This document shows, piece by piece, positions 17,714 through 63,247 of a DNA stretch of 64,000 nucleotides; the stretch's first letter is position 1, and each line of letters begins with the position of its first letter. The stretch lies in NCBI GenBank assembly GCA_964017155.1, contig OZ024854.1, forward strand, positions 46,767,423-46,831,422, written 5' to 3'. The translations under genes and the position numbers were made by a program. The notes beneath the pieces were generated by a model that saw only the letters and a list, made by a program, of their open reading frames with translations, was not told the origin of the DNA and searched no databases. The stretch is from Oasisia sp. SBJ-2009 (lineage: Eukaryota; Annelida; Polychaeta; Sabellida; Siboglinidae).

Positions 17714-17732
17714 CGTGGCGCTGACAGATTGT

Positions 17733-17748
17733 CTGGAAATAGAGAAAG
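17733..17748 (-). promoter_or_regulatory. Candidate 5'UTR splice acceptor of TLR2
   Basis: On the minus strand CTTTCTCTATTTCCAG lies about 20 nt upstream of the ATG. It is a pyrimidine tract ending in CAG, as at a 3' splice site. It is conserved at all four TLR copies, so the genes may have a non-coding first exon further upstream and an uninterrupted coding exon. Confidence 0.45.
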
Positions 17749-36639: not shown

Positions 36640-36658
36640 CGTGGCGCTGACTGATTGT

Positions 36659-36674
36659 CTGGAAATAGATAAAG
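36659..36674 (-). promoter_or_regulatory. Candidate 5'UTR splice acceptor of TLR4
   Basis: On the minus strand CTTTATCTATTTCCAG lies about 20 nt upstream of the ATG and differs from TLR2 by one base. A non-coding upstream exon is therefore possible. Confidence 0.4.
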
Positions 36675-37258
36675 TTGAATGGATTAACGGGAAACAAAAG
36701 GCTTCTTCTTGACGTGATGCGCATAAACGTTTTAATGTAAATTAAAACGTTGTCACTACAGTTAACAATTTCCAATCAGCAGAACGCAGCGTGAAAATGA
36801 TAGCTTCTGATAAACATTTGATGTCAGATATTTCGGAGGCAAATAACTGGTTTATGGAGTTTAGCTTGTCAAAACAATTGCGAGTCGTGACATTGGCTAT
36901 GACGCGACAGGATCGTAGTTTCTATTGACATGTAGGGAAAAAAAGTGTTGTTGCATACTGCTGGCGTAATAGTTTTGTGTGTACACTTGCAAATTGTTAG
37001 GGTTTGTTAATACACCTAGATGCATAGATCCAAAACGTTGCCTTTTGTAACCATGGAAATTGTTACTATGTAATTTAAGATATTCTAGTCGGTAATCGCT
37101 CTGGACAAAACCGACTCCGGACGAAAAACCCAGGACATTAGTCCCCGGAATAAAACCAACTTGGGCAAAATTACCCTGGACACCGCTAGTTCACTTTGCT
37201 TGTTTGGTATATTATAACTGCAATTAGCCAATTGTGTTTTAATTTATACTCAAATGTA
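36675..37258. other. 5' flank of TLR4
   Basis: This flank is collinear with 1430-2013. No gene was seen. Confidence 0.5.
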
Positions 37259-37631: not shown

Positions 37632-38948
37632 TTACAGGTCCAAACGTTGTCGGCGTTTCACTCGTCTTCCGGAGCTGGTGTATTGTTCTGGTGGTGGGAG
37701 CTGGAAACGGACCGACTTCTTCTGGGGTAACGGGTCGTTACGCGGAGGTGGTACGACATGCGTGTCGACTCTTCGCGTCAAGTCGTCTGTTTTTGTATTG
37801 TGCATCATTTTTTTTCGGAACGTACTAGTATGTCGTTCAGTCGGCTCACGGAGGTAGCGACGGTTACGCCTAGGGACATTGCCTGTCGGAGTCAAGACGT
37901 TTTACGACCGCGGGTGTACGTCAGTTGATACCACGTTGACAGGCTGCCAGGTGTCTGTCTGAATGTCTCTCACGCGAACGTCCTGTCCTGGTATTAGCGG
38001 TGCAAGTGGTTGCGTAGCTTGCTTATCGTGGTTGAGACTTTGGATTTCTCGCCTCTCGCCGATACGACGTCTGATTTCGTCTCTCGACCAGTGTTCATTT
38101 CTGATGATTACGGGGAGGTTCGACTTGTACTTGCGGGCATTTAGTAGCATCTCTGCCGGTGACTGTAAATGGTTGTCGATCGGTGTGGATGTCAACGAAA
38201 GCAGTGCTTTCTGCGTGTTGGATCTCGACATCGCTGCCTTCTTCAGGGTATACTTCACCGTCTGAACTTGACGTTCGATGAATCCATTCGATTGAGCGAA
38301 GTGTGGGATGGACGTTACATGGTCAAAGTACCACTCAGGGGCGACGTTTCGAAAAGCCTGACTGCTATAGTGCCCACCGTTGTCGCTCATAGGCTTGTTT
38401 GGCGATCCATTCTCCGCAAACACCTCACTCATCTTCGATATGATAGCGTCACTCGGCACCTTCCCCTCGATGCGGTAGACAAAAGGGAATTTCGAGTAGT
38501 AGTCACATATCAGTAGATACGTGTCCTCTCGTATGGCAAACAGGTCTGTGCCGACGATCTGCCACGGACGCAACGGTGCAGCTAGATGGCGTTGGCTATC
38601 TGGCCATCCATCCACAACGACGGCTCCCAGCGCACACAGCTCATAGTCGGCTTGTGTCGCTTCTCTAATCGACTGTAGTTTCACCCCGAGTTCCACTATC
38701 TGGTTGATCTCATTCCTCACGTCGTCTTTCATGTGGATCGGACATCGTCTGGGTGCATGTACAACTGGGGTCACAGCAGGGTCTAGTTTGATGTGGAACG
38801 TTTCGCAGAACTTCCCGATGCCCTTAAAACAATCTGGATACAGCCGCTGCAGATCTTCTTTCGAGTTCAACGGCGGTAGATGCTCGCTGACTGCACAGTT
38901 CAAGGTCACAAAGTTAAGTTTTCGGCAGGAAGGTAGTCCCAAGATCAT
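37632..38948 (-). pseudogene. Gypsy copy 3 fused pol remnant
   Basis: A 348-codon frame (37902-38948) joins the end of the protease region to the integrase core (Ser-Asp-Asn-Gly-Gly-His), with two internal deletions and no polymerase. A TAA separates it from the tail at 37632-37895. The long open frame is a by-product of in-frame deletions. Confidence 0.75.
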
Positions 38949-39725
38949 TGGACCTGGCGTGTCAGCAACAAAAAACTCTGCTTCGCATGCGTCTCATGCG
39001 CACACTTCAGTCGCGTAGTACCATACTGCCGGATCAGCTGTCCGTTGTAGGCAGTTAGGATCGTGTATCGATGCTGAAGGCTGCCTCGCACTGGTATTCC
39101 TTCTGTGTCGATGTCTGACGGATACATGCGCTGGGACGTTCTCAGCGGCATTACGGTACCCTGCGCACCTGTGTCGACCTTGACACGAAGTGTCGCTGGG
39201 GTATCAGGCCTGTCTTTCAATGTGATCCCGAGAGTCGCATATACCTCGTCCCTCTCGACGACGGCATTGATGTTAACAGTATTAAATGCAAGCGGCTCGA
39301 AGTTGTCGCTGAGCTGATCGAAGCTGGCGTTGGCGCTCATCTCGGTTGGTCCTTCGTCTTGGCATAGCTCGAGATCTTGGTCGCCCAGAAGAGTGTGGTC
39401 TTCCTCCGGCGCCATACGTCCAACGTGTAGTCTGCCGACATACTCGCTGCCAGTGATTTAGTTGACCACATGCATTACACTTACTGCCCTCTGCTGGACA
39501 TCGAACTGTGGGCACATGATGACGTCCACATTGTGCGCACGTAGGTACCCCCTCTCGACGTCCACTTGGCTCATGTGTTCCCCGCCACCGGCTGACGTGA
39601 CTGATGCTGCTAGCGTTTCCTGAAAACTGCTGCATATTAGCCAGTGTTGTCCCATGCGTCCTACCAACGTCCATCGCCGCGTCAAGTGTTAGCGTCTCAT
39701 CACGGCATAATGGCTTTTCCTGCAC
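38945..39725 (-). pseudogene. Gypsy copy 3 gag end and protease
   Basis: A zinc-knuckle frame (39282-39725) overlaps a protease frame (38945-39415, with Val-Asp-Thr-Gly-Ala) by about 130 nt in a different frame, which again points to frameshifted expression in the ancestor. A small deletion near 38990 breaks the protease frame. Confidence 0.7.
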
Positions 39726-40935
39726 TTTCCCATGCGGACACCCACTACTAACTGTTCGATCAACCTCTTCTCGGTCTCTGTAGCATCACGGAACTTGCAT
39801 TTACGCCCTGCGGCTTGCAGCGTGTCATGAACTAGTCAACTGTCTCAGAGCTCAACTGCCTGAAGGTTTGGAGATGAAAACGACTCAGCCTGTAATTTGA
39901 CTTGGGTTCTATCAGAGCCTGGAATTTAGCCCAAATAACCTAAACATCTTTCTTAAAAGTTTCACTGAGGTCCCAAGTGTTGTACATTCGCAGATCCTCC
40001 TGTCCTACCCATAGCAGGATATAGGTCACTCGTTCACTTTGCTCTTTTGGCTTTTTCGGCAAAAGAACCCACTGAACATTAGTTCACAGTATTGAAAGAA
40101 TGAATTAACGAAACTCCGTAGGTAGATCAGTGGCTAACCAGTTCATGCGCGGCGGCTCGATTCCTGAACGATCACCCATAGCTGCCTATTAATGGCAATG
40201 GTCAATCACTTACACAGTGAGAACAAATCGGGTCTGGAACGGCGAACATTCGAACGCACACCGAAGTGGATTGGCGTGCGTGTGTGCGTGCGTGTTGACC
40301 TAGTTTAAGTATTTACGAAACTCGAAAGCGCCGGCTTCAGCATAGCTGCCACCATGAAACGTGTCGTCTTGGCCTTCCTAGTGGGTACTAAGATTCTTCG
40401 CCTCATCTCGCATTCATACATCGGTATCTGATTCAACACACAGAAGTACGGAACTAATCAATTTATTCTGATCACAAGCGACAGAGGAATAGGGCCCGTA
40501 AGTGTGTCACGATAAATGGCGTAACTCCGCGCGATTGGAGCTCATTGGGGTCTAAGCGAGACAATTGGGGACTGGTCACAAGAATAATACACAATAAAAT
40601 AGTTTACGGGATTTGCATTTTACATTGCTGTACATTGTGGTTTCGATAAACACTTATATCTGACAAGTTGTCTAAATTCGCATAATCATAACACATGTGT
40701 ACCTTTGCCCCAAACAGGTTGTACTACGCGAAAATTGGCACTTTTCATTATTAGTCAAGATCGCCAAACGCAAGTACTTGCCGCTATTGCCATGGCAACC
40801 ACCATTATAATCGATTAACATTCATTATTTCCGTGATCACTGTCACCGGCAAAGTTTTCCACTGCTTCTGCTTATAATAATCCTTCGGACTATATAACTG
40901 AAATAGTTAGACTGGAACCGTTCGATTATTACAAC

Positions 40936-41101
40936 TGTCATATATTGCGATTGTCACATAAGGTAAAAATGCAGAGCTGGGAGTAACGCAGTTTATTAGT
41001 GTAATCGGATACAGCAACAACTAGGCCACCCAGGCTCGATAGTCTCCGTTCTGTTGTTCATTATTTGTCCGTTGGATGGCGCAACAGTGCCATACATCAC
41101 A
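40936..41101 (-). repeat. 3' LTR of Gypsy family B
   Basis: This 166-bp TG...CA repeat differs from 45584-45749 by two substitutions, GTCAC/GTGAC near the start and CATTATTT/CATGATTT near the end. Confidence 0.9.
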
Positions 41102-41366
41102 TTCCTCCCTCTTTAGATTCGTCATAATCTATTGTCCATAAACTATCACTGGTTTTTCAACAACATCTCAAAGATTATAATGACAGTCTTCCCAACAGTT
41201 ATGTTGTGTGAATGCTAATCATATTACTACTACATCTATTTCTTAACTGGCTTGAAAATGAACAGGGGTAGACTACCCTGTATCATTCTATGGTGAGGAG
41301 GTGTTATTCTGACCTCATGTATTCTCACCATGAACTGACTAGTTCTAGTTCACTACTACAGCCAGT

Positions 41367-43022
41367 TCACATGTCGAGGCGCTGTACTGGTCTTCGCACT
41401 CGTTGAGACCTTCGCAACTGCGGAGTCACTGGTTGTAACTCTACAGTGGCATCAGAGGTCGCATGGTTATCCTTGCTGTTCATCTCAGCCGTCGAGTGTT
41501 GTGTGCTGTCAGTTGTGCTGTCAGTTGTCGCACGGGATGTCTCTGTCGATGACTCCTGATCAGATGAAATGGCTGGCACAATTCGTTCCTCCGTTGTGCT
41601 CTCCTTCTCTTCCCCCACAACCGGCTGAACCTCCACGTCAGGTGGATATATCATATGCTGTGTATAGCGTGCCCTGGTGTGGTCTTGGTGACGTCGAACA
41701 GTGCGACCATCTTGCAGTTTCACAACGAACGATACTGGTCCAGATTGACTCACCACTACTCCAGGAAGCCAACATGGCCCGCTACTGAAGTTCCTCACGT
41801 AGACCTTGTCGCCCTCATCTATCCGTCTGTCTTTGGCGTGGTTGTCATGGTAACGTTTCTGTAGGCGTTGTTGCTCTTCGACAGCGCTGGCTTCATCAGG
41901 GTGACATAGATCAAGATGTGTTCGAGCTTTTCTTCCTAGCAACAATTCCGATGGTGATCTGCCCGTGGTTGCATGTGGTGTATTTCGGTATTTGAACAAA
42001 TACCTCGCCAACTTGGTTTCCAGGTTTCCCTGTGACATCCGATTTAGACCCTCCTTGACCGACTGTACAGCTCGTTCAGCAAGTCCGTTTGAAGCAGGAT
42101 GTTTCGGGGCAACCTTGATGTGTTTGATGCCATTCCGACTCATGAACGTCTGGAACACTTCACCCACGAAACATGTGCCGTTATCGGAAACCACCGTATC
42201 TGGAATCCCAAAAGCTGCAAATGTTGTTCTCAGTTTCTCCACAGTGGCTTCTGCAGTGCTAGAAGTCATCACATGTACTTCTACCCATTTGATGAAGGCG
42301 TCCACGATGATTAACAACATTTTGCCACAGTACGGCCCGGCATAGTCCACGTGTAGTCGACTCCATGGTCTCTTCGGGTCCTCCCATGGATGGAGCAAGG
42401 CCTTTGGTGGTTGGTGTCTCTTGCACTGACATTTCTCACAGCTTCGGACTTTTGTTTCGAGATCTTGGTCTAACTTTGGCCACCACACATAATTTCTGGC
42501 AAATGTCTTCATTCGCACGATTCCTGGATGTCCTTCATGGATCATCGCAATGACTCTGTCTCGCGCCTTGAGTGGGACAACTACCCGTGCTCCCCAGAGT
42601 ATGCACCCACTCTGGATAGACAACTCTTCTTGTCTTGTGAAGTACGGCTTCAGCTGGTCATTGTTGTCGATTGAGTCAGGCCATCCCGAGGTGATGAATC
42701 TACGGACTCTCGACAACAGAGGATCTTTGTCTGTCAACTGCTTGATCATCCGCACATCGATTGGCGATGAGTCGAAGAACTCGAGCAGGCAAACGATCTC
42801 TGCTGGCATCGGTACTTCAGTTGGCAACTGTGGCAATGGCAGGCGACTCATTGCGTCCGCATTCCCCAGTTTTTCTCCTGACTTGTATTTGAAACAGTAG
42901 TCGTACGCACTCAAAGCTAGTGCCCAGCGTTGGATTCTGCCAGATGCTCTCGGTGGCACAGCTTTGTCTTCATGACCCTTCGAGTGGCTTGTGGTCATTG
43001 CAGATGACAAAGTGTCTTCCAT
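41367..43022 (-). pseudogene. Gypsy B RNase H end and integrase
   Basis: A 551-codon frame includes the end of the RNase H region, the integrase zinc module (His-X4-His-like plus Cys-Glu-Lys-Cys), the DDE core with Asp-Tyr-Ala-Gly and Ser-Asp-Asn-Gly-Thr, and a Ser/Thr/Glu-rich C-terminal tail ending in basic residues. A frameshift near 43000 separates it from the upstream frame. Confidence 0.9.
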
Positions 43023-43971
43023 ACAGGTAGGAGTGAAACTTCTTCACGCCCCACACCACTGCCAATGCCTCCTTCTCGAGTTGCGAGTAGTTCTTTTCTG
43101 CCGGAGCAAGTGTTCTCGATGGAAAGCTTATGGGTCGCTCGGAGCCATCTTCCATCCTGTGAGCCAAGACGGCACCGATCCCATATGGTGAGGCATCACA
43201 AGACAGGATCAACGCCTTCTCTGGATCGTAGTGGACGAGCACGTTGGATGACTGAAGGAGGTCCTTTGAGCGCTGAAACGCTTGCTCTTCTTCAGCTCCC
43301 CACTCGTAACTGGCGTTCTTGTTCAACAGTTTGTTGAGGGGTGCTATTTCAGTCGACAAGTTCGGAATAAATCTTCCGTAGTAGTTCAAGCAGCCCAAGT
43401 AACTTCGTAGTTCCTTGGTGTTCCTCGGTGCTGGTGCCATCGATACTGCCTGGACCTTCTCCTTGACTGCGTGTAGACCTTCTTTGTCGATACGGTACCC
43501 CAGGTAGGTCACTTCTGGAGCCATGAAAGTGCACTTGTCCACGTTCAGCCTTAATCCAGCTGTTGACAGTCGCGGAAACACTCGGTCCAGGTTTTGCAAG
43601 TGTTCTTCTTGTGTCCGGCCCGTGACCAGAATGTCATCCAGGTAGGCACACACACCTGGAATTCCTTGCAAGACATTGTCGACGACTCGCTGGAAGATGG
43701 CAGGCGCAGAACTGACGCAAAACGGAAGTCGGTTGTATTGGAACAATCATCGGGATGTGTTGATTGTCACGTACTTCTTGGACATCTCATCCAGTTCCAC
43801 CTGCAGGTAGGCGTTCTTCAATTCCAGTTTCGTGAAACTGTGCCCTCCAGCCAGGCTTGCGTAGAGGTCTTCGATTCGTGGCAATGGATAGGTGTCGACT
43901 CTGGACGCTCGATTCACAGTCAATTTGAAGTCACCGCAGATTCGCACACTCTCTCCTTTTCCCTTGAGCAC
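42970..43971 (-). pseudogene. Gypsy B reverse transcriptase and RNase H
   Basis: The polymerase palm has Tyr-Leu-Asp-Asp, and RNase H begins with Ser-Cys-Asp-Ala-Ser. A TGA at about 43747 splits the fingers from the palm, and the frame closes at 42970 by a frameshift. It belongs to the Ty3/Gypsy superfamily, probably near the Mag-type elements. Confidence 0.88.
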
Positions 43972-44103
43972 TGGGACTATCGGCGCTGCCCAGTCTGCAT
44001 ATTTGACTGGTTCGATTATCCCTTCGTCCTGTAGTCGGGTGAGCTCCTGGTCTACTTTTTCACGTAGTGCATAGGGAATGTTTCTCGGTTTGTAGAAACG
44101 CGG

Positions 44104-44811
44104 TTAGGCATCATGGTCCACTTGGAAATGCCCTTTCACCCCATGGATGGTCCCTATGTTTGATTTCAGAAGTTCTGGATACCTCTGAAGAAGCGTGTCG
44201 GCCGACATCACCAGGGTATTATCGGTACTCATCCGGTATATCTCCCTCCAATTGAGAGTGAGCTTCCTGAGCCAGTTTCTTCCAAGCAGGGTTGGCCCAC
44301 TGCCTGCTACTACCAACAATGGAAGTCGTTCCTGCTGTCCTTCATACCCCACTTCCACATGGGCTGTTCCCATGGTTGGCATAATTTCCCCTGTGTACGT
44401 TCTTAATGTCGAGCTTGTATCCTCGATGGGGATGTCTTCAAAACACTCATGAACTGTTTCTTCACTTATAATGGAAACTGATGCTCCAGTGTCAATTTCC
44501 ATTCTCAACTCTTTGCCGTTCACCTTTAGCATGGCCCAGAATGCTGAAGGTTTATCTTTTTCTGTATCAACTGTGTACAGTTGATATGTTTCATGTTGGT
44601 TCTCAACATGATGGACCGATGATGGATCCCTTGGTCTTATTTTTGATTTCTTTTTGAATGGTGTCCTACCATCACTATATACTTTCTTGCTGCGACACAC
44701 ACGCTGGAGATGACCCTTTTTGTTGCACTGGTGGCATACAGCATTCGCATAACGACACTGGTCGGGCTTGTGGTTATTCCCTCCACAGTGGTAACAGGGA
44801 CTTGTTATCAT
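44104..44811 (-). pseudogene. Gypsy B zinc knuckles and aspartic protease
   Basis: Two CCHC knuckles (Cys-Tyr-His-Cys... and Cys-His-Gln-Cys...) precede a retropepsin with Ile-Asp-Thr-Gly-Ala near residue 105. A TAA at about 44104 separates it from the reverse transcriptase in the same frame. Confidence 0.88.
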
Positions 44812-44848
44812 CTTCCGAATGCCTCCTGAACTGCTGGCACTTGGTTTC

Positions 44849-45382
44849 TCACCTCTTCTGGCTACATAGTTGACAGCTGACTTGGCAGAACCTATCGATT
44901 GCCTTGTGGTAGGTGAGCGCTGTCTCAGCCAGCAGCCGACGCTGTATCGCTTCGCTTCTGATGCCTACCACCAGTTGGTCACGTAGGCGTTCGCTCAGTG
45001 TCTCGCTAAAGTCATACGTACTGCTCAGTTGTTTTAGCTGGGTGTTGTATTTCAGCACCGTCTCCCCCTCGACTTGGTACCGCTTCATAAATCGAAAACG
45101 TTCAACAATGACCAGGGGCTTCGGACAGTAGTTGGCTTTTAACACGTCGATACACTGTTGAAGTGTCTTTTCACTAGGCGGCGTTGGCGACACCAGCGAT
45201 TTCAGTACGCCGTAGGTTTGGCTTCCAATAATCGACAGGAAAGCCGGCAATCGCTTATCATCGGCAATGTCATTTACTTGAAAGTACAACAGCAGTCTTT
45301 CAACATATGCCTCCCAACTTTCATCTTCCGTGAAAGGACCTATTGTTCCTATCAGCCCAGCCATATTACCGAACTGACGCAC
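44849..45382 (-). pseudogene. Gypsy B gag core
   Basis: A 177-codon Gag capsid-like segment contains Trp-Glu-Ala-Tyr-Val-Glu-Arg and Lys-Arg-Tyr-Gln-Val-Glu-Gly-Glu. It is followed by a frameshift near 44885, after which the knuckle region continues in another frame. Confidence 0.8.
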
Positions 45383-45583
45383 TACCGCCGGCGCTGTATT
45401 GTCGCTCAGCTGTCACTTGAGGACACGTCAGGTCAACGGCCTCACGTTTCGTCGCTGCCTGATGCCGGTCGGTCGACCAAAGTTCGCAGAATTTCGCTTC
45501 TGTCACGCGGGTTGTTCTTGTCTTTCACTTCCCACCTACCCTTTCTTGTTTAGTGAGTGGATCCCGGCCTCGTCGCCATTTTA

Positions 45584-45749
45584 TGTCATATATTGCGATT
45601 GTGACATAAGGTAAAAATGCAGAGCTGGGAGTAACGCAGTTTATTAGTGTAATCGGATACAGCAACAACTAGGCCACCCAGGCTCGATAGTCTCCGTTCT
45701 GTTGTTCATGATTTGTCCGTTGGATGGCGCAACAGTGCCATACATCACA
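45584..45749 (-). repeat. 5' LTR of Gypsy family B
   Basis: This is the partner of 40936-41101 and is followed by the second ACAAC. Confidence 0.9.
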
Positions 45750-45957
45750 ACAACCAAAAACAAAATGAAGTCCTATACGTTAACATGGAGAATATGGACC
45801 TCCTGCCCTCCACTGCCCCCAGCCTCGTTTTCGCGCGCGAGACTTACACGCCCTATACAGCGATTGACACTCTAGTCTCGTCATCTCCAAAGCCTCGATC
45901 TCCCAACTGCGTATACCGTTCTATGTTCTACGTGTATTGACATAATATCACAACCGT

Positions 45958-46368
45958 GAGCTACGCCGTTTAAGGGTTACATTAACTATCCCTCTAGAAC
46001 AAACTGTTCAAATTCAAAACGTATGACTGCCTGGCTTTGAGATGTTTGTTGACAGTAGTGAGTGTGGTGACTTAACTGTTAACTGGAATAAGACGTTATA
46101 TTATGTTAAAATGATTGAGTCAATGTATTAACTGCAATAAGACAGTGTGTGTAAGTAGATTGATAAGACGCCGTGAGAATATTAATAGTGTGTCAACTGA
46201 ATTGTTAGTTTTTTTAACTGGACAGAGGAAGTGAAATTGTTATGTGTGTGTATGTGTGTTTGTTTGTATGTTTGAGTGTGTGTTTGTTTGTGTTTGGTTG
46301 TGTGAATGCGTTTGTGTGAGTGTGTAGTCTACATGTGCTGTCCGGGTTGATATAATATGTGTTGGCTG
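45958..46368. other. Unit 4 spacer before Gypsy copy 4
   Basis: This is ordinary unit spacer matching 30487-30900. No gene was seen. Confidence 0.5.
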
Positions 46369-46593
46369 TGAAACGTGTCGTCTTGGCCTGACATCTGTGT
46401 AGTCGGATTGTCCGACTCATCTCGGTTTCATACATATCTGATTCGACACCAGAAGTACTGAACAAATCACTTTATTACAATTACAAGCAGAGAGAGGGAT
46501 AACAGTGATCGACCTCGAGTCTCGTCATCTTCCAAGACTGATCTCTTCGACTGCATATGTCGTTCTATGCATTTACATTGGCATACCATCACA
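46369..46593 (-). repeat. 3' LTR of Gypsy copy 4
   Basis: This 225-bp TG...CA repeat reads identically to 50781-51005. Confidence 0.92.
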
Positions 46594-46710
46594 TCCCTCT
46601 TTCTTCAAAACATAAAGCCAAAATAACTAACTTACTAATGTCCGTATGTAAGAGAAATCAAATCATTATTCTAACTATTAGCCATAATGTTCGTGTAAAC
46701 TAGAACACAA

Positions 46711-49690
46711 TTACAGGTCCAATCGTTGTGGGCGTTTCACTCGTCTTCCGGAGCTAGTGTATTGTTCCGACTGTGGAAGCTGGAAACGGACTGACTTCTT
46801 CTGGGGTAACACGGAGTTACACGGAGGTGGTACGACTTGCATGTCGTCTCTTCGCGTCAAGTCGTCTGTATCGTCCACATTGTCTTGTTGGAACGTATGT
46901 CGTTCAGTCGTCTCACGGAGGTGACGACGGTTACGCCTAAGCACATTGCCTGTCGGAGTCAAGACGTTGTACGACCGCGGCTGTACATCAGTTGATATCA
47001 CCTTGGCAGGCTGCCAGGTGTCTGTCTGAGTGTCTCTCACACGAACGTCCTGTCCTGGTATTAGCGGTGCAAGTGGTTGCAAGGGTGCAAGTGGTTGCAA
47101 GACGACGTCTGATTTCGTCTTTCGACCAGTGTTCATTTCTGATGATCACGGGGAGGTTCGACTTGTACTTGCGGGCATATAGCATCTCTGCCGGTGACGG
47201 TAAGTGGCTGTCGATTGGTGTGGATCTCAACGCGAGCAGTGCTTTCTGCGGGTTGGATCTCGACATCGCTGCCTTCTTCAGGGTATTCTTCACCGTCTGA
47301 ACTTGACGTTCGATGAATCCATTCGATTGTGGGAAGTGTGGGCTGGACGTTACGTGGTCGAAGCACCACTCGGCGGCGAAGTTTCGAAAAGCCTGACTGC
47401 TATAGTGTCCACCGTTGTCGCTCACAACCTTGCTTGGCGATCAATTCTCCGCAAACACCTCACTCATCTTCGATATGATGCGGTCACTCGTCACCTTCCC
47501 CTCGATGCGGTAGACAAAGGGGAATTTCGAGTAGTAGTCACAGATGAGAAGATACGTGTCCTCTCGTATGGCAAACAGGTCTGTGCCGACGATCTGCCAC
47601 GGACGTGTCGGTAACTCATGCTGCATCAGCGGTTCGTGCGCCTGACGTTTCTGTAACCGTTGACACGCGTCGCACTTCCTCACGATGTCGTCGATGTCCT
47701 TGTTGATCGCCTTCCAGTAGACACAGGACCTCGCTCGCAGCCGGGTCTTCTCTATGCCCTGGTGAGCCTCGTGCAGTTTGCTCAACACTTCCGCCTGTAG
47801 ACTTAGGGGAATCACCAGACGGTCGCCCTTCATGATAAGACCGTCCTCAACTGCCAACTCGTCTCGGCATGACCAGTAGGGTCGCAACGGTGCAGCTAGG
47901 TGGCGTTGGCTATCTGGCCATCCATCCACGATGACGGCTCTCAGCGAACACAGTTCATCGTCGGCCTGTGTCGCCTCTCTGATCGACTGTAGTTTCTGCG
48001 TTGAAAACTGTACGAATGACACTTGTATGTCAAGGTCGATCTGCGTCGACTCGCTACTCGGTTGTCTTGACATGGCGTCGGCCAGCATCATTTGCTTTCC
48101 TGGCTTGTAGCGTAACACAAAGTCATACGGTTGTACTCGCAGGAACATTCTCTGTAATCTCTGCGGTGCTGCTGCAAGGTTCTTCAAGTTGATCATCTCG
48201 AGAGGTTTGTGGTCCGACTCGAGAACGAACGATTTTCCGTAGACATACATGTGGAACCTCTCGCAGCCGAAGACGACTGCGAGCATCTCACGTTCAATGT
48301 TGGCGTATCGCTGTTCGCAATCACTAAGGGACTTGCTGGCAAACGCGATGGGCTTCCCGTGTTGAATGAGAACAGCGCCGAATCCTCGGCTGGAGGCGTC
48401 GACCAGGATGACACTCTCAGCCTGTGGGTCGAAGTACACAAGGGTCACTTCACGACAGATGAGAGACTTCGTCGCTTCAAACGCTGCGTTGTGAGATTCC
48501 GCCCAGATGAACTCGGCGTCCTTCTTCACTAGATCACGCAGGGTTGCGGTTTGCTGTGACAGGTTTGGAATGAATGACGACATGTACGTGGCTATGCCCA
48601 GAAATTCCTGAAGTTGTGCGACGTTTTGCGGTTCTTTCATTCGCTGGATGTCCGCGGCTTTGCCTGGGTCTGGACGTACGCCGTCTGCGCTGAATTCCAA
48701 CCCGAAGAACTTCATGTTCGCCTGTTTGATGTCGCATTTATCAATGTTGAACACCAACCCATGCTGCAGTGCTACTCTCATCAAGTTGTGCAGATGTTTG
48801 TCGTGTTCGGCTTCTGTCTTCCCGAACACACCCACGTCGTCAGCAATACTTATCGTTCCTGGGCACTTCTCAAGGATGCAGTCCATCCTCTCTTGGAACA
48901 CGTCTTGGCTGAGGTTCAGGCCAAACGGTAGTCTTCTGAAACAGTACCGGCCGAAGGGACTGTTGAACGTTGTCAGACGCTTAGACTCGTCGTCTAACTG
49001 CACGGACCAGTATCCGTGACGTGCGTCTAGCTTGGAGAAGATCATTGACCCAGCAAGCTTGTGGGTAATTCCCTCCAAGGTCGGTGTTGGGTGGTGCGGA
49101 CGCTTGATAGCTGTGTTCAAGTCTTTGGGATCCAAGCAGATGCGCAACTTTCCGTTCGACTTCCTGCTGTATACGATGCTTGATACCCAATCTGTAGGCT
49201 CCTCGACCTTCTCGATCACCCCGAGTTCTACCATCTGGTTGATCTCATTCCTCACGTCGTCTTTGATGTGGATCGGACATCGTCTGGGCGCATGTACGAC
49301 TGGGGTCACAGCAGGGTCTAGTGTGATGTGGAACGTTTCGCGGAACTTTCCGATGCCCTTAAAACAATCTGGATACAGCCGCTGGAGATCTTCCTTCGAG
49401 TTCAACGGCGGTTGATGTTCGCTGACTGCACAGTTCAAGGTCACCAAGTTGAGCTTGCGGCAGGAAGGTAGTCCCAAGATCACTGGACCTGGTGTGTCAG
49501 CAACAAAGAACTCTGCTTCGTGTGTGGTTGTCTCATGCACACACTTCAGTCGCGTAGTACCGTACTGCCGGATCAATTGTCCGTTGTAGGCAGTTACGAT
49601 CGTGTCTCGATGCTCAAGGCTGCCTCGCACAGGTATTCCTTCTGTGTCGATGTTTGACGGGTACATGCGCTGGAACGTTCTCAGCGGCAT
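46711..49690 (-). pseudogene. Gypsy copy 4 pol polyprotein
   Basis: A 749-codon frame (47441-49690) continues in the same frame at 46988-47425 after one TGA. In order it has the protease end, reverse transcriptase (Phe-Gly-Arg-Tyr-Cys-Phe and catalytic Ile-Ala-Asp-Asp), RNase H (Val-Asp-Ala-Ser), the integrase zinc module and the integrase core (Gly-Thr-Asp-Leu; Ser-Asp-Asn-Gly-Gly). A frame change near 47100, at a duplicated GGGTGCAAGTGGTTGCAA, leads to the basic tail at 46711-47136. The protease active-site part lies upstream in another frame. Confidence 0.9.
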
Positions 49691-49742
49691 TACGTTACCC
49701 TGCGCACCTGTGTCGACCTTGACACGAAGTGTCGTTGGGATG

Positions 49743-50640
49743 TCAGATGTCAGGCCTGTCTTTCAGCGTGATCCTGAGAGTCGCATATACCTCGTCCCTC
49801 TCGACGGCATTGATGTTGACGGTATTAAAAGCAAGCGGCTCGAAGTTGCCGCTGAGCTGATCGAATCTGGCGTCTTGACTGATGGAGTGAACACCACCTC
49901 GTTGGCGCTCATCTCGGTTGGTCCTTCGTCTTGACCTAGCTCGGGATTTTGGTCGCCCAGAAGAGTGTCGTCTTCCTCCGGCGCCAGACGTCCAACCTGT
50001 AGCCTGCCGACATACTCGCTGCCAGTGATTGCGTTTCCCACATGCGTTACACCTACTGCCCTCTGCTGGACATCGATCTGTGGGCGCATGATGACGTCCA
50101 CATTTTGCGCACGTAGGTGCCTCCTCTCGTCGTCCGCTTGGCTCATGTGTTCTCCGCAACCAGCTGACGTGACTGATGCTGCTAGCGTCTCCTGAGAACT
50201 GCTGCATGTTGGCCCACTACTAACTGTTCGATCAACCTCTCCTCGGTTTCTGTAGTATCACGGAACTTGCATTTACGCGCCTGCGTCTTGCAGCGTGTCA
50301 TAAATTCGTCAACTGTCTCAGAGCTCAACTGCCTGAATTTATGCAGATGAAAACGGCTCAGCCTGTAATTAGACTTGGGTTCTATCAGAGCCTGGAATTT
50401 AGCCCAAATGACCTCAACGGCTTTCTTATCAGTTTCACTGAGGTCCCACGTATTGTACATTCGCCGACCCTCCTGTCCTACCCATAGCAGGATATAGGTC
50501 ACTCGTTCACTCTGCCCTTTTTCAGCAAAGGGCCCACTGAAAATCAGTTCGCAATATTGACGGAATGAACGAAACTCCGTGGATAAATCAGTGGCTAACC
50601 AGTTCATGCGGGGCGGCTCTATACCTGACAGATCACCCAT
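49743..50640 (-). pseudogene. Gypsy copy 4 gag
   Basis: The gag core (50182-50640) and the zinc-knuckle segment (49743-50207, two Cys/His clusters) overlap out of frame near 50200. A short repeat (GTCAGATGTCAGG) near 49745 shifts the frame into pol. Confidence 0.8.
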
Positions 50641-50780
50641 AGCTGCCTATTAATGGCAATGTCTATCACTTACGCAGTGAGAACACATTGGAGCTGGCCA
50701 GCGTCGACTCGACGGTGCCGCGTGCGTGTTGACCTATTTACGAATGTCGAAAGCGCCGGATTCAACCGTAGCTGCCACCA

Positions 50781-51764: not shown

Positions 51765-52894
51765 TGCTGGCTGGATTGATATAATTAATATAGCAGCCGT
51801 CACCGTATGTCTTTGTGTGTGTTGATTGTGACCGTCGATAAGCTTTATGCTACGTGGCGATCTACCACACGAAGGCTTACGCCCTAGTTATAGTCCTTGG
51901 ACAACTGCATGTGAATCAAACCGTGCACAGACGCCTAAAATAGCATGTGTACAACAAGTGTGGGTGATAGTAATGTAGTAATGTATTGACAACTCCCAAT
52001 GCTTTGTCCATTGGTCAACCACGCTACCTTAAAAGAGTTCCAATTATACATACTAACCTACATCGCTACGACCTACATAATCCAACCAGCTCTGAACACT
52101 CGCTAACGAACTTGCTCACGTTCACACTCAGTCACGTACACACACGCATTCGCACAGTGCGCCTGACGAGTGATGTCAGGTTTACTTACACTCAATATGC
52201 CAAGTCCGAAATGTAACGACGCGAGCCGAACACACGTTCAAGTAGGAGTGACTCGTTCTCAATTGTTCGGATCCACGCAGCAACGAATGAACAATTCTGG
52301 CGACGTGTAATGTTTTCAATAGGGCTATTGTCGAGACTTGCGGCTACACACGCGGAAGTAGTCTGTAGCAGAAGTAGGTCACTACTTCGTGTCCGTTGAA
52401 CTTACTGAACTAGTATCGACAATGTATCTGGATGATCTTTGTAGATTGCACATGTGCTAATGACACCTTGCCGTTCATCGAATCGCCATTATCCGCCTGT
52501 GTGCAGTATTTACTATTTACTTTGTTCATAATGCAAAACACTCCGAGATAAGGCTCCTATATGCGATGCAACTAGTGGCGTCACGCCACGGAGCACGGGT
52601 AATCGAGGTATAGCACCTGCGCCGATCCCGCACCCAGACTTGGCCAAAGGGATCGGTACAGGGAGAAATGACCAGCCCAGACAAGGTGGAAGAAGGAACA
52701 GGTCCAACTCTGAAGCCTCCAACTGCTCCTGCTTTGGGTATACAAACGGTCCAACTGTACAGCATTTAGCTCGTCAACAAACTCCACCTACACCTGACTA
52801 GGAACTGACAAAACACGTCATCATATTGCACACTACTCACCCGTGAGAATCAAAATTCAAATTCCACCTCCCTGAGACAGGCATACACACTCAT
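51765..52894. other. Unit 4 tail: spacer and conserved block
   Basis: This is the last copy of the unit spacer, with the bidirectionally open block at about 52596-52801. No gene was recognised. Confidence 0.45.
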
Positions 52895-53058
52895 ACGCAC
52901 GTCCATGCCAACGGGTGCAAACACACACCACACATACAGAGAAACACATACGCACGCACGCACTCACGCACACAGACACACACGCGCACTCACTCACTCA
53001 CTCTCTCTCACTCACTCACTCACTCACTCACTCACTCACTCACTCACTCACTCACTCA

Positions 53059-53105
<47 letters not shown>
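52895..53105. repeat. CA / ACTC compound microsatellite at the end of the TLR array
   Basis: These are the same repeat types as at the other unit ends. After 53105 the sequence no longer matches any unit, so this is the right edge of the array. Confidence 0.9.
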
Positions 53106-53639: not shown

Positions 53640-54180
53640 TTTACAATATCCGCGATCCTTCGCCGTATTCGCTGGTTTATATCACTTTCCGTTGCTAAAA
53701 CCATCGCAACGCCTCTAGTAAGCAACATACTTGACTACTGCAATTCCCCCCTCTACAATACCGCAAACAAGGATGCAGCAAAACTTCAGCATGTCTAAGA
53801 TTATTGTTTAGCAAGGGTAGTCACGTGTTTTCCTAGTTTTTCTCGCTCGGTGTCGCTTCTAAGATCATTGCATTGGCTGTCTGTGCACTATCACATTATT
53901 TTAAAGATGTGTACAATAGCCTATCAAGCACTCTCATCTACACAACCAGCATATCTAAATTCGATGCTAACACTAGCAAGAAATTCCAGACAGCTACGCT
54001 CAACCAGTAGTAATCCTCTTTACATTCCTCGGGTGAAAACGAAAGCTGGGACCCGAGCTTTCTCGGTTGCCGCACCAGCTGTGTGGAATTCGCTTCCTGC
54101 CAGTGTTATACCAGAAGGTAGTAATAGCTTCATTTCGCCGACGTCTAAAAACCTATCTATTTAATGCTTCTTGTCCTCCT
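53640..54180 (+). mobile_element. CR1-type LINE 3' remnant
   Basis: The frame 53850-54164 reads like the C-terminus of CR1-type LINE proteins: Leu-His-Trp-Leu-Ser-Val, then Gln-Leu-Arg-Ser-Thr, then Gly-Thr-Arg-Ala-Phe-Ser-Val-Ala-Ala-Pro with Trp-Asn-Ser-Leu-Pro. Upstream codons (53650-53850) are in other frames. Only the 3' end of the element is left. Confidence 0.75.
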
Positions 54181-54310
54181 TAGCTTACTAGCATCTTCAT
54201 CCATCCATTGATGACTCACGCATTGTTCTACGATGACGAATTTGCTTAATCCCTTGGTTTTGTCGCGCCACTGAGCTTGATCTTCGAGAATATTGGCGCA
54301 AAAGAATCCC

Positions 54311-55703: not shown

Positions 55704-55946
55704 ATGTCGAAGGGTGTTCATCGCCTTCCGCCCATGGTGAAGCACCCGCGCAAGACCCCCGGCGGTGCCGCGGCATCTGCGGCCGCTGTGGAGGAGGAGG
55801 ATGGGGGCAGCATGGACCGCGACGAGCAGAAGGTGCTGCGCCGGAAGAAGAACGTCCTCGCCAACCACATCCAGCTCGACGCCGACTGGGTGCAGGGGCT
55901 GACCGTGAACGGACTCATCAACGACGGCATGATGGCGCAGATCAAG
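55704..55946 (+). CDS. Exon 1: start, acidic linker, CARD helices 1-3
   Basis: This exon encodes 81 codons from the ATG. A basic N-terminus and an Ala/Glu-rich linker lead to the first half of the CARD (Val-Leu-Arg-Arg-Lys-Lys-Asn-Val-Leu-Ala-Asn-His-Ile, then Trp-Val-Gln-Gly-Leu). It ends AAG|GTAGTC. A second in-frame ATG at 55734 is an alternative start. Confidence 0.8.
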
Positions 55947-58900
55947 GTAGTCTACGCTGTCGTTGTGTTGGTCCGCCTGTTTGTGTATATGCTTGTGCAC
56001 GGCACATCAATAAATACATAAATGATAAATAAATAAATAAGCCAGCCAGCCAACCAATCTAACTAGTAATCATACTCAAAATCATACTCAAACGAACGAT
56101 CGACCGAACGACCGAACGACCGAACGATCGACCGAACGACCGAACGACCGAACGACCGAACGACCGAACGACCGAACGACAGAACGACCGATCCATCGAT
56201 CGATCGATCGATCGGTCGAACGAACGAACGAACGAACGAGCGAGCGAGCGAACGAACGAACGAACGAACGAACGAACGAACGAACGAACGAACGAACGAA
56301 CGAACGAACGAACGAACGAACGAACGAACGAACGAACGAACGAACGAACGAACGAACGAACGAACGAACGAACGAACGAACGAACGAACGAACGAACGAA
56401 CGAACGAACGAACGAACGAACGAACGAACGAACGAACGAACGAACGAACGAAGTAATTTCGTGGTCGCTATGTTGGTCGTTCAGTTGAATAAGTTTCGAG
56501 ATGTCAAATATGTGATGATAATAAAAAACCTAATTTTAAGATACGTAACTACTGTAAAGAATTACAACAGTGTTAAGGTGGATAACCCTCACACATCTAG
56601 GTTTAGAAATATTTACATTTTTGGCGAGCAGAGGTTTTTATTGAGGTCACAATGCAACATGCTTTCCCTGTGGGAAATGGGATGGGCACGGACGTTTCAG
56701 TTCATTTGCAACCGAGCATCCCTCAGTATACGCCATCATTCACCAGTAAGCATTTATGCATGCGTGAAACCATTGGTAAACGTGTAAACATGCGCTAGGT
56801 GTCTAACGTGCGTTTGTTCTGATTTTAACGATTTTAAAGCATTGCATTACTCGCTCCCATACCTGCCATCAATAAGACATCACGTAAGTTGCACGCTAGC
56901 TACCAGAGCACACGTTGAATCATTGTTGAATAATTTACGTGCCGCTCCTATTGATTAGCACGATAACTCATGCGGAAAACAAAGGCCGGATGTGTCTGAA
57001 TACAAAAACGCATCATTTCAGACCTTCGGCGAACTCCGTGCATTATAAATGAACCTTTGCTTTAAGCTGTGAGTCGGCTTTGTTACGAGCTAGCCACTCG
57101 AGAATTCCCTGGAAACGGCGAGACAAACGTAACTTTGTTCATTTCACGCCTACATATGTCGAGTCAAACACAGAGTGTCACATATTCACAACTATAGGTG
57201 GCGTGGTCGTATGATAGTATAATTCATTTTTGTTTTCAATCATGACGTGCAACCTGTAGTTAGATGTCAGACTTCCACGGAATAACGCGTCTGTAGGTGC
57301 GAAGACGTTGGCTCTATAATATAAAGGCGATTGTAAATTATCCTAAGTTGAAATGTGCGGACATGATAAACAAGTTTATCATGCGGGGATTAAAGCAAGG
57401 GAGCCAGCTCCTAGGTTTATTATTTTCGTTTAATACTACGTTCTTGTGACTACAAAGTGCATGTTTAAGGTTTACTGCATGCCGATTTGTGTTTAGTTAC
57501 TTTATTAAGCTCGGAGCAATGTTCAAAATTTGAAAGATTTTACCTGCAACACGTTCGACTAATCACCAAAACATCCAGTATATAAACTAAATTGAATTGG
57601 CAATAATGCCGAGGTGACCAGAGTTAACCGAAATACCCTTTGATGCTTAACTTTCCCACGTACTAGACAGCAGATTTCCCGTCACAAAGAACTGCTCGGC
57701 CAACTCTGGGCAGAGGAGCTTGCCCCCTCTCTTTAAACCATGATTATAAAACTAGAGTTTGGTCAAGGGTACTGGGTAGTAGTCGTGTAGCACCTTTGTA
57801 AAAACCTCGACACCGTCGAAGACTTCAACAGTTCTTGTCCTGAAACAACGCCCTCATCGCGTAGTGCACTAAACCATCTTCATGATTTTTGTCTCCGCCG
57901 GTGAACAACTTGTCATAATACACTTATTATAATAATATAAGTTTTATTGGCAGCTCAACTGAGTTGGATTGACATTATATAATAAAATACAATTAACGCA
58001 TAAAAACATCATAAAATATAAATACATATCATACCGTATTAATAGACTTGTTTACTGGCAGTTGTATAAAGCCCACGGAAGGCCCTATAAAGGTGTTACG
58101 GAATCTATTCGTTCTAGTAACTGGTAACGGGTACACATTTTCTCGTCTAGTATTATATTCGGTATGTCTTTTGTCAGGCAGCAGATAACTTAATCTATGT
58201 GTGCCGACTTTAGTTTTATAAAAAATATTTATGACAAATCCTGTTCCGTCTTACATTCAACGTATCCAGGTTAACACGTCTAAGTATCTCCGTGTAACCC
58301 AATCCAGGAGAAATACATTTTAATGCCCTTTTTGTATTACTTCAATATTGTCAGACACATATTGCGGCAAGTTAGTGTGCCATACAGGACATGCATATTG
58401 GTTTCATCACACTAGCATATACACTGACCAGATCTTTCTGTGTAATACCTGCATGCTTTAACTGATATAACATGTACAATCGTTTACCTGCCTTTTTCAT
58501 AATATTTTCCACGTGTTTGTTCCATGTTAGATCCTGAGAAATGGTCACACCTAACAGATTGGCATGGCAAACGTGTGCCATATCCCGCCCAACAATCTTT
58601 ATATTCGGGATAGTGCTTCTGAAATTGTCATCTTGTGCAAAACTAATGATTATTTCTTTTGCTTTTTCCGAATTAATGTTCATGTCATTCGGTTCTGTTC
58701 AGCTAGCAGCAATATCAACCGACTCTTGTAAAACATATGCACTCTTTCTGTCGCATTTTTCAAATACCGTATTGCCATCTACATACTTATATAATGGAAC
58801 AGTCGTTCTTAAATCATTTATATAAACAAGGAAACGTTTAGGTCCAGACAATGTTCCTTGCGGTACTTCCCATTGGCCAGAATGGGAATATTCATTTCCT

Positions 58901-61813
58901 ATTTTTACTCGTTGAGCTCTGTCTAATAGAAATGTTGCCATCCATCTTAAAATAGGTGCGGGCAACCCATACGATTGTAGCTTATCTAGTAACAAATGAT
59001 GATAAAATCAAACGTTTTGCTAAAGTCTAGCATTACAACTCTGACATAAGCATTCAGTTTATCTGTCGCCTTATACCACCTAGGAACCATTTCGACAAGA
59101 AATTAGGGTTATACTCAGGTGTGTCTGGAATGAAGGCCTGTGCCCTACATATGGATGTTATCATTAAATAATAAATGACTGTTAAGACGATATCAGGTTT
59201 CATCTGGCCGAACGAACTAAAAATATGTGCAGTCATTATATTAATCATACGAACGGGCAAAACGTGCCAGGCATCGATCGGAAGTCATTTTACCGCGAGT
59301 TCAAATCCAGTATGAAGAAAGTATTTTCAGTAGGTCTTCAGTGTTTTGTTTTTCTCAACCTTATGTATTTTTCATCCAAAATGCACGCACGAATGTACAA
59401 ATATACGTACGTGCATACGCACACAAAGTCCAAAAGACACGCGCGCGCACACATATATACATACATGAACGCACGCACGCACGCGCACGCGCACGCGCAC
59501 ACGCACACGCACACGCACACGCACACGCACACGCACACGCACACGCACACGCACACGCACACGCACACGCACACGCACACGCACACGCACACGCACACGC
59601 ACACGCACACGCACACGCACACGCACACGCACACGCACACGCACACGCACACGCACACGCACACGCACACGCACACGCACACGCACACGCACACGCACAC
59701 GCACACGCACACGCACACGCACACGCACACGCACACGCACACGCACACGCACACGCACACGCACACGCACACGCACACGCACACGCACACGCACACGCAC
59801 ACGCACACGCACACGCACACGCACACGCACACGCACACGCACACGCACACGCACACGCACACGCACACGCACACGCACACGCACACGCACACGCACACGC
59901 ACACGCACACGCACACGCACACGCACACGCACACGCACACGCACACGCACACGCACACGCACACGCACACGCACACGCACACGCACACGCACACGCACAC
60001 GCACACGCACACGCACACGCACACGCACACGCACACGCACACGCACACGCACACGCACACGCACACGCACACGCACACGCACACGCACACGCACACGCAC
60101 ACGCACACGCACACGCACACGCACACGCACACGCACACGCACACGCACACGCACACGCACACGCACACGCACACGCACACGCACACGCACACGCACACGC
60201 ACACGCACACGCACACGCACACGCACACGCACACGCACACGCACACGCACACGCACACGCACACGCACACGCACACGCACACGCACACGCACACGCACAC
60301 AATGTCTTTATGTACTTTTATAAAATGTAGGTTTTGTAGTTATACGTTTGGATTTTTTTTTATGTAAAGCGCCTGCATATATGTTTTAGCTATATTTGGC
60401 GCTATATAAGTTTATTTATTTGTTTATTAATGCATCTCACGCCGGCTAACTAAGCAAACGGTAGTTAGCCTACACACAGCTGACCGTGCTTGCGCGACGT
60501 TCCGTTGGCCAGGACGAGGGCAGTGGCTACAACAAGGTGGTGCGGCTGCTGGAGCTGATGACGACGCAGTGCGAGGGCCCTGGAGCCTTCCAACGTCTCT
60601 GTGACGTCCTCGAGACGCGCCACCCGTGGCTCAGTCAGGAGCTCATCGCAGAACTCAAGGTGTGTTTCGCGGCCTCTGATTCGTCAGCGCGATGTTACAA
60701 CAATTTCCATTGGCTGTAGACACCTGATGCAATATATGGCACGTTATTTCATGTGGGGTACGCGCGATGGAACTAGGTCAATTATCGGCGTAAGACTGTG
60801 ATTTAATTGAATTTTGATTCAACGGGGGGAGTTTAAATACGCACCCATCGCACTTCTGAAGCTATTTGACCGGTATGTAGGAACAATTTCCACCCAAATG
60901 CTAACCAAAACCATGACTCGGTAGATTCCAGTCCTAAGTTAACGGAAGTGACGTGTTGTTCCCGGCAGGCCGAGCGAGGGGAGCTCAAGGTGGAGCGCTA
61001 CGTGGAGCACGAAGCGGGACTGATCGTGCGTCGCGCGTTCGGCGCCAGCAAACGTCTCTCGCAGGCCGAGAAGAACGACATTCACCGCCTGGTGGCACTG
61101 CGCACGCAGTACGCCAAGGAGGTGTGGCAGGTCCGTGCTGTTTCTGGCTAACATTCACATTTCCACAGCTACAGTGACTAACGAGATCCAAGATGTATTT
61201 CGCTTGTATAATAATTATTATCCGTGAGAATGTATTTCACAGAAGGGGCCGGTTTAACGAAGCGTTCGTACTATACGAACGTTCCTCCGGGGACGTTTGG
61301 CTTTGATGCGGAGCTCACGAATTCACGAAAGGTACAAACGAATATTCCGTGATGCCGGCCCCAAATACTGAGGCTTGGTGCTAAACTCTATTTATTATAA
61401 CATATATGACGTTAACTTAACTTTAGATTTAGTGGGTTGAGGAGGGGAGGGGACCGGTTAGAGTGATTTGACATTACTCAACAGTGTACGCAATTTTGAC
61501 TTCGTGGACTTGTATCAGTGGACCCGTTATCTGTAGCGCCTCTGTCGTTGACCTGTCGTTGACCTGTCCACTGTAGACGATGCTGGAGCGGACGAAGGAC
61601 GAGCTGAGTCGGCAGAGACACGTCGGGGCCGAGCAGCAGGCGTACGCCGGCGACCTGCTGCGTAAGGTGGGCGGACGGCAACAGGACAGAAGTATTAATT
61701 CTCTCTCTCTCTCCCTCGCTCTCTCTTTCTCTCCCTGTTTGTGTGTGTCTGTCTTCTGTCTTCTGTCTCTCTCTCTCACTCTCTCTCTGTCTGTCTCAAA
61801 TTATCTCTTTCAA

Positions 61814-61883
<70 letters not shown>

Positions 61884-63247
61884 ACCTTGTCTGTCTGTCT
61901 CTCTGTGTGTGTCTCTCTCTCTCGGTCTGTCTCTTTCTTTTAAACCTTATTAAAAATGTTTTATATAAAACAAATTTTACAAAATTAAAGTATGCTAAAG
62001 CATGGTTAAATCTAGTTAACATCTGGCTCTAAATTCGGCCGTAGGTGACGGACTTCGTGCGCGTGCAGCAAGGTCGTCTACGTCACAACCTGCGCGAGGC
62101 GGCCGAGGCGTCGACGACGACCCAGCAGCTGCTGAGTGACGGCGATGACGACCGGCCGCTGCTGAAGCGACTCGAGCACCAGATCTCACTGCTCGAGGAG
62201 CTCACTACGCAGGCGCTACTCGAGAAAGAGGCTCTGCTCGAGGAACGCAAGCGCGCCCTGGCGGTACTCGGTGTCACTGATGGCATAGGCACCAAGTTGG
62301 ACACCGAGGTATGTATTTAGGTGACATGACGTACGTAAGCACGCGTGACCTGATATACGTTTTCACTGTTTACTTGTTTATGGCGCATAGGTGTGATATA
62401 CACAGAGTGTATTGGTGGATTGTTATCCCAATTGACCAGCTTTAGTCCAATAGAAGCACTTGTGAAGAATTATTGTAGTTCAGATAAAATACACTAGAAA
62501 ACAGTAGAGCATGTTTGTATAGGCTTCATGAATCACATCGCCATTTCCTCAGTTTGATAAGTTGATCGATATATGTCCATCCGTCTGTCCGTCCCCTCCC
62601 CCCTCTCTCTCCTTCACCCCTTCCCTTTTTGTCCGTCCGTCACTCACACACACGCATGCGCGCGCGCGCACATACACCCACACAGCCTCCGTTCCCAACC
62701 CCCATTCCTCTCACCGCCGTCTGTCCCTCTTCTTTGTCTTTTAACTCTCCAACCTCTCATAGACAACCTCCACATCGCCAACCACCAACCCACTAACCGC
62801 AATCGCCCCTCGCTACAGATCCAGACGGCCCTGAACAAGGCGACGGCCGAGCTGTCGAGCAGCCGCGCCGAGCTGAAGCGACGCGACACGAAGCTGGAGA
62901 ACCTGGACAACGAGATCCGCTCCCTGCGCTCTGTTACGGAGCAGGAGATCGACTGGCGGGACCGCGCCATCGAGACGCTCAAGGAACACCTGCAGCAGAG
63001 CCACGAGCGCGTGCGACAGACGCACGAGACGGCCGGCGACCTCGAGCGCCGGCTCAAGGTGAGCAAGGCCGAGGTGAAGAAGTACAAGGCCAAGGCCGAA
63101 CAGCTGGAGAAGAACCGGCGCCTCGGCTACCTGCACGACAAGGGCTCGGAGGCGGACGACACGTCGGTCGGCGGGGCGTCCGGCATGTCCCGTGGCGGCA
63201 CTTCTCTGCAGAGGAGAGGAGCGACAGGGAAGGCTGTGAGAAAGTGA
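55704..63247 (+). CDS. CARD and coiled-coil protein gene, six coding exons, 444 aa predicted
   Basis: Exons are 55704-55946, 60513-60659, 60969-61130, 61577-61666, 62045-62308 and 62819-63247. Each is a multiple of three, so every intron is phase 0, with GT donors and AG acceptors throughout. Residues about 44-130 fit a CARD (six amphipathic helices). Residues 131-214 are charged and helical. Residues about 240-425 are long heptad-rich coiled coils, followed by a Gly/Ser-rich tail. CARDs drive assembly of caspase-activating or NF-kB-activating signalling complexes, and coiled coils give oligomers. The order CARD then coiled coil resembles CARD9/CARD11, but I see no sequence match beyond the fold. 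Coding exons are GC-rich in AT-rich introns. It lies on the opposite strand about 19 kb from TLR4. Exact orthology and any role in TLR signalling are unproven. Confidence 0.8.
56090..56452. repeat. (CGAA)n and CGACCGAA tetranucleotide array in intron 1
   Basis: Variant CGACCGAA-type units (56095-56190) and GATC-type units pass into a pure (CGAA)n run of about 200 bp ending at 56452. Variant units lie only at the left end. Confidence 0.95.
56453..57929. other. Intron 1 sequence
   Basis: AT-rich with no recognisable gene. The frame 56461-56787 has no family resemblance. Confidence 0.4.
57930..59110 (-). mobile_element. LINE remnant in intron 1 of the CARD gene
   Basis: Minus-strand reverse transcriptase pieces read 58699-58995 (Val-Pro-Gln-Gly-Thr-Leu-Ser-Gly-Pro and the catalytic position Tyr-Val-Asp-Gly) and 58372-58683 (the following thumb segment). 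The second catalytic Asp is replaced by Gly and several stops split the frame, so it is dead. A C-terminal tail reads on in broken frames to about 58030. It lies antisense to the host gene. Confidence 0.8.
59473..60300. repeat. (GCACAC)n hexanucleotide array, about 820 bp, intron 1
   Basis: About 135 nearly perfect hexamer copies, preceded by GCGCAC and ACGC variants. Because the unit is a strict pyrimidine-purine alternation, it is a candidate for Z-DNA. Open frames of 300 or more codons in several frames on both strands follow from the 6-bp period and are not genes. Confidence 0.97.
60513..60659 (+). CDS. Exon 2: CARD helices 4-6
   Basis: The acceptor is TTGGCCAG|GAC and the donor AAG|GTGTGT. 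The 49 codons include Val-Val-Arg-Leu-Leu-Glu-Leu-Met and Gly-Pro-Gly-Ala-Phe-Gln-Arg-Leu-Cys-Asp-Val-Leu. The Gly-X-X-Ala-Phe...Leu pattern is typical of CARD helix 5. They end with Trp-Leu-Ser-Gln-Glu-Leu. Confidence 0.85.
60969..61130 (+). CDS. Exon 3: charged helical segment
   Basis: The acceptor is CCCGGCAG|GCC and the donor CAG|GTCCGT. The 54 codons are rich in Arg, Glu, Ala and Leu. No domain is recognised; it is likely helical. Confidence 0.8.
61131..61576. other. Intron 3 of the CARD gene
   Basis: Ordinary intron sequence; nothing else seen. Confidence 0.6.
61577..61666 (+). CDS. Exon 4: short helical segment
   Basis: The acceptor is CACTGTAG|ACG and the donor AAG|GTGGGC. It encodes thirty codons, beginning Thr-Met-Leu-Glu-Arg-Thr-Lys-Asp-Glu-Leu. 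It is predicted to be helical. Confidence 0.75.
61700..61935. repeat. (TC)n and TCTG-rich microsatellite in intron 4
   Basis: Pyrimidine-rich (CT)n, with a pure run at about 61818-61880, lies about 110 bp upstream of the exon 5 acceptor. Confidence 0.93.
62045..62308 (+). CDS. Exon 5: coiled coil
   Basis: The acceptor is GGCCGTAG|GTG and the donor GAG|GTATGT. It encodes 88 codons. Leu-Lys-Arg-Leu-Glu-His-Gln-Ile-Ser-Leu-Leu-Glu-Glu-Leu opens a heptad pattern that runs to the end of the long Glu/Lys/Leu-rich helix. Confidence 0.82.
62309..62818. other. Intron 5 of the CARD gene
   Basis: AT-rich first half, then a C/T- and CA-rich low-complexity stretch (62575-62700) before the exon 6 acceptor. 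Confidence 0.6.
62819..63247 (+). CDS. Exon 6: coiled coil, Gly/Ser-rich tail and stop
   Basis: The acceptor is TCGCTACAG|ATC and the stop is TGA at 63245-63247. It encodes 142 residues. The first 100 or so are a strongly charged coiled coil (Leu-Glu-Asn-Leu-Asp-Asn-Glu-Ile-Arg-Ser-Leu and later Leu-Glu-Arg-Arg-Leu-Lys). The rest is a flexible Gly/Ser/Thr tail with basic end residues. Confidence 0.85.
   Translation: MQTALNKATAELSSSRAELKRRDTKLENLDNEIRSLRSVTEQEIDWRDRAIETLKEHLQQSHERVRQTHETAGDLERRLKVSKAEVKKYKAKAEQLEKNRRLGYLHDKGSEADDTSVGGASGMSRGGTSLQRRGATGKAVRK

Follow-up and report, generated by a model that had tools for sequence, protein, structure and literature searches.

RAIDD/CRADD, the adaptor of caspase-2, has an N-terminal CARD and a C-terminal death domain, and Toll-like receptor (TLR) signalling through MyD88 runs through TIR and death domains. 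In this study, we have analyzed a CARD gene that lies beside an array of TLR-like genes in the siboglinid annelid Oasisia sp. SBJ-2009, in a stretch of 64,000 nucleotides referred to here as the window (assembly GCA_964017155.1, contig OZ024854.1, positions 46,767,423 to 46,831,422 of the forward strand). The product is new but belongs, as a divergent member, to a kind of protein that is already known. We consider it probable, at roughly 60%, that the gene encodes a self-assembling siboglinid scaffold composed of a CARD and a coiled coil, which recruits a CARD-bearing partner.

The six exons of the gene (Table 1) join in phase 0, with GT/AG at every border, into a frame of 444 residues. Their GC content is 65%, versus 45% in the introns, and reaches 86% at third codon positions; the preliminary description, which was made from the letters of this DNA, had reported six GC-rich exons with such borders and a frame of this length, and all six lie where it had placed them. 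A full-length protein search returned LSAT2_025008 of Lamellibrachia satsuma (449 amino acids), which is 78% identical over the entire query (E 5.7e-213). Because this protein, which was predicted independently in the genome of another species, matches over the full length through all five exon junctions and shares the start methionine, with 16 of the first 17 residues kept, a chance joining of exons is ruled out and the gene model is real; LSAT2_025008 is its ortholog, and the match points to a siboglinid annelid as the source of the window. Identity between the two proteins in exons 1 to 6 is 74, 84, 96, 73, 85 and 81%, respectively, and exon 3, just behind the CARD, is the most conserved, with 49 of 51 aligned residues identical. 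An in-frame stop lies upstream at 55593, and no ATG separates it from the chosen start. The L. satsuma model is three residues shorter at the exon 3/4 joint, which indicates a donor at 61121 and not at 61130; the two sites agree with the MAG/GTRAGT consensus at 6/9 and 7/9 positions, so that the window sequence alone cannot choose between them, and the true donor of exon 3 may be 61121. Intron 1 contains long simple repeats with GAAC and CACACG units at 56080-56450 (~370 bases) and 59470-60300 (~830 bases), as well as a minus-strand fragment at 58000-59150 that resembles, and that we take to be derived from, a non-LTR (long terminal repeat) reverse transcriptase.

No relative besides L. satsuma was listed when the full-length query was run against 5.77 billion proteins (scoring covered the 7998 candidates with the most words in common) or when ortholog residues 36 to 215 were used (691 candidates scored). 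Likewise, no Ridgeia piscesae relative was listed, though the database holds some annotated R. piscesae proteins. Such searches reach only candidates that have exact 5-residue words in common with the query and are 0.55 to 1.75 times as long; therefore, their outcome argues against a close relative of full length in that database, whereas a distant ortholog or a gene model in fragments could have escaped them. Among the matches listed in the literature on siboglinids or tubeworms and CARD (titles and the starts of abstracts), no publication treated this gene, and the word CARD occurs nowhere in the main text of four siboglinid genome papers (PMC6862839, PMC8789280, PMC8476170 and PMC10192322). 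LSAT2_025008 was deposited as a hypothetical protein, with no Pfam domain on record, and this tubeworm gene can now be named as CARD-bearing.

The preliminary description had placed a CARD in exons 1 and 2, and the profile search confirms that residues 43 to 125 are a CARD. As an isolated segment, these residues scored 26.7 bits against Pfam CARD (PF00619; cut-off, 23.9; E 5.9e-6) and covered profile positions 1 to 82 of 85, and none of seven shuffled versions of the segment matched. The whole protein scored 21.4 and the corresponding L. satsuma segment 15.7, both under the cut-off; for the whole ortholog, Pfam CARD was not listed at E ≤ 0.1, and NCBIfam gave only matches far under cut-off. 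All four PDB sequence searches that contained the CARD listed the CARD of RAIDD, the nearest solved sequence (E 0.0003-0.03; ~83-87 of its 100 residues aligned) and the only CARD found there, and none of them listed a CARD9, CARD11 or BCL10 chain (three at E ≤ 10, one at E ≤ 1). In sequence, then, the CARD was not found to be nearer to those of CARD9 and CARD11 than to other CARDs, in line with the earlier remark that likeness to these scaffolds goes no further.

Structure prediction confirmed a CARD fold at low model confidence. The first model, built from a single sequence, retrieved no CARD in Foldseek and generic helical matches in VIA-align. With the second, better model, natural CARD proteins filled 29 of the first 32 Foldseek rows, the modelled CARD region had the six helices of a death fold, and the CARDs of CARD9 and CARMA1 were among the structural matches (Foldseek, VIA-align), families absent from the VIA-align list not being excluded thereby.

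The rest of the protein, exons 3 to 6, had been described beforehand as almost wholly helical or coiled coil. Helix is indeed modelled throughout most of the L. satsuma ortholog behind the CARD (residues 140-158, 164-242, 248-286 and 292-407), with predicted local distance difference test (pLDDT) values of 83-94 across residues 301-400, but the coil had been overstated. An excess of heptads is confined to residues 301-405 of the window protein, where 0 of 500 shuffles reached the mean score and 24 of 500 the best-window score; there was no excess in residues 131-215 and 216-300, where the mean was reached by 228 and 140 of 500 shuffles, respectively. Exons 3 to 5 alone, used as a PDB query, gave no informative relative. 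The arrangement of CARD plus coiled coil holds, with the coil placed in exon 6 and with a helical linker behind the CARD as the most conserved stretch.

In such a protein, the long helices, or at least the exon 6 coil, would bring copies together, presumably in the cytoplasm; once clustered, the CARDs could seed an oligomer or filament that draws in a partner with a CARD of its own, for instance an initiator caspase, a CARD-NLR or a protein like BCL10, in an immune or cell death response. TLRs signal through TIR and death domains. CARD-NLRs or caspases would be more natural partners than TLRs, since ASC is reported from craniates only and tubeworm NLRs with a CARD-NACHT-LRR order have been described (PMC11508797). 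Vestimentiferans carry many NLRs, with counts of 20 for Paraescarpia echinospica and 68 for L. luymesi (PMC8476170). Being conserved, and having no near relative listed from outside the siboglinids, this CARD scaffold is a concrete candidate for vestimentiferan NLR signalling. It would be an improbable further step for a siboglinid-specific scaffold of this kind to stand in for ASC, linking the expanded vestimentiferan CARD-NLRs to CARD caspases; if it did, the scaffold would set the reaction of the worm to symbionts and pathogens.

It is rather unlikely that the gene instead belongs to the CARD-CC family (CARD9, CARD10, CARD11 and CARD14) as its divergent ortholog in annelids, acting via BCL10 and a paracaspase. 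The parts appear to come in the same order, and the structural matches to the CARD9 and CARMA1 CARDs would fit; the sequence, however, does not favour this reading, RAIDD being listed but no CARD9 or CARD11 chain at E ≤ 10, and no heptad excess follows directly behind the CARD. There was also no match to PDZ, SH3 or guanylate kinase domains at E ≤ 1, in agreement with the preliminary description, although CARD9 does without these domains too. What keeps the reading alive is a report that places annelids in the CARD-CC/BCL10/paracaspase branch and describes CARD-CC homologs only from BCL10-bearing species (PMC5978004).

It is unlikely, too, that the product is a structural coiled-coil protein (ciliary, centrosomal or cytoskeletal) whose CARD fold serves another purpose. 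The strong conservation of the helical part (96% in exon 3 and 85% in exon 5) is consistent with such a role, as are weak Pfam matches of the window protein and its ortholog, all below cut-off, to CCDC and sperm-tail families, and the axonemal coils that Foldseek and VIA-align listed as weak structural matches. Nevertheless, the CARD is backed by sequence, and axonemal coils would be the default matches of long helices. Furthermore, neither of the two protein searches, whose reach is close relatives, listed an ortholog with a ciliary role.

The TLR-like copies that had been noted next to the CARD gene are real, four in number and on the minus strand (Table 1). The copy at 34006-36741 is the only one in which a TIR match exceeded the cut-off, and the other three share 94-96% of its DNA sequence; the copies at 1-1496 and 24339-27024 are broken by a stop or frameshifts, so that intact and interrupted copies stand side by side in the array. 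The segment at 52001-53101, of which 52001 is simply where the query started, is a flank of the TLR duplication unit, 91-98% identical to the sequence at ~8.8-9.9, 20.4-21.4 and 32.0-33.0 kb. As the duplicated flank ends near 53101, the duplications stop ~2.6 kb before the CARD gene. This segment carries the flank without a TLR and may mark either the place of a lost copy or the edge of the array. The interval that separates the CARD gene from the last TLR contains minus-strand frames at 37902-50646 that resemble gag, protease, reverse transcriptase and integrase, presumably of LTR retrotransposons, and a plus-strand fragment at 53650-54250 that resembles what we take to be a non-LTR reverse transcriptase.

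Among 48 listed relatives of the TLRs, 16 aligned with at least about half of the query (36-93% identity), and the others were mostly distant leucine-rich repeat (LRR) proteins; R. piscesae was among the close relatives, at ~50% identity. The contig size of the L. satsuma ortholog (253015) was listed for none of the 48. This evidence is weak: 7987 candidates were scored, each cluster gives one contig, one row gives none, and L. satsuma is not named in any row. The expansion of TLRs in these worms is already published: the parts of the reports cited here give 33 TLRs in L. luymesi versus 5 in Capitella (PMC6862839), an expansion of both TLRs and NLRs in vestimentiferans (PMC8476170) and a lowered expression of TLR/MyD88 genes in the trophosome of Riftia (PMC8789280).

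Despite the adjacency within the window and the vestimentiferan TLR expansion, it is very improbable that the CARD protein is a dedicated adaptor of the neighbouring array, and the receptor-plus-adaptor neighbourhood proposed in the preliminary description is not supported, since the gene lies on the opposite strand and outside the duplicated unit, with ~19 kb between it and the closest TLR copy, has no second copy within the 64-kb window, encodes neither a TIR nor a Death match (E ≤ 1 in the window protein, E ≤ 0.1 in the ortholog), and has an ortholog whose contig size, for what that weak result is worth, is listed for none of the 48 TLR relatives. Distance is all that ties the CARD gene to the TLRs, and its position beside the array is most likely incidental.

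Table 1. Exons of the CARD gene and TLR-like copies in the window
Feature	Position	Strand	Content	Basis
Exon 1	55704..55946	+	Residues 1-81: start Met, basic/low-complexity N-terminus, predicted CARD helices 1-3	Frame, ortholog alignment, structure model
Exon 2	60513..60659	+	Residues 82-130: predicted CARD helices 4-6	Frame, Pfam segment search, structure model
Exon 3	60969..61130	+	Conserved helical linker behind CARD; 3' end may be 61121	Frame, ortholog alignment
Exon 4	61577..61666	+	Helical	Frame, ortholog alignment, structure model
Exon 5	62045..62308	+	Helical; heptad signal within shuffle range	Frame, heptad test, structure model
Exon 6	62819..63247 (stop codon included)	+	Heptad-patterned coiled coil to ~residue 405, then basic low-complexity tail	Frame, heptad test, structure model
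TLR-like copies	1-1496, 15080-17815, 24339-27024, 34006-36741	-		LRR and DNA comparison

In conclusion, the preferred reading is a self-assembling CARD-coiled-coil scaffold, which compares with described proteins as follows. The full-length L. satsuma protein is the ortholog, with the same start, differing by its three missing residues at the exon 3/4 joint and by a CARD that falls under Pfam detection in the whole protein. A MyD88-like TLR adaptor differs in its TIR and/or death domain, neither of which the window protein matched at E ≤ 1. RAIDD/CRADD provides the best solved sequence match to the CARD, but no match to its death domain turned up here (E ≤ 1), the remainder being modelled as long helices. 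From the CARD-CC family, the window protein differs in CARD sequence, in having no PDZ, SH3 or guanylate kinase match and in a heptad excess restricted to residues 301-405; it is likened to that family by a CARD fold that matches those of CARD9 and CARMA1, among others, and, less clearly, by its architecture of a CARD with long helices and a coil behind it.
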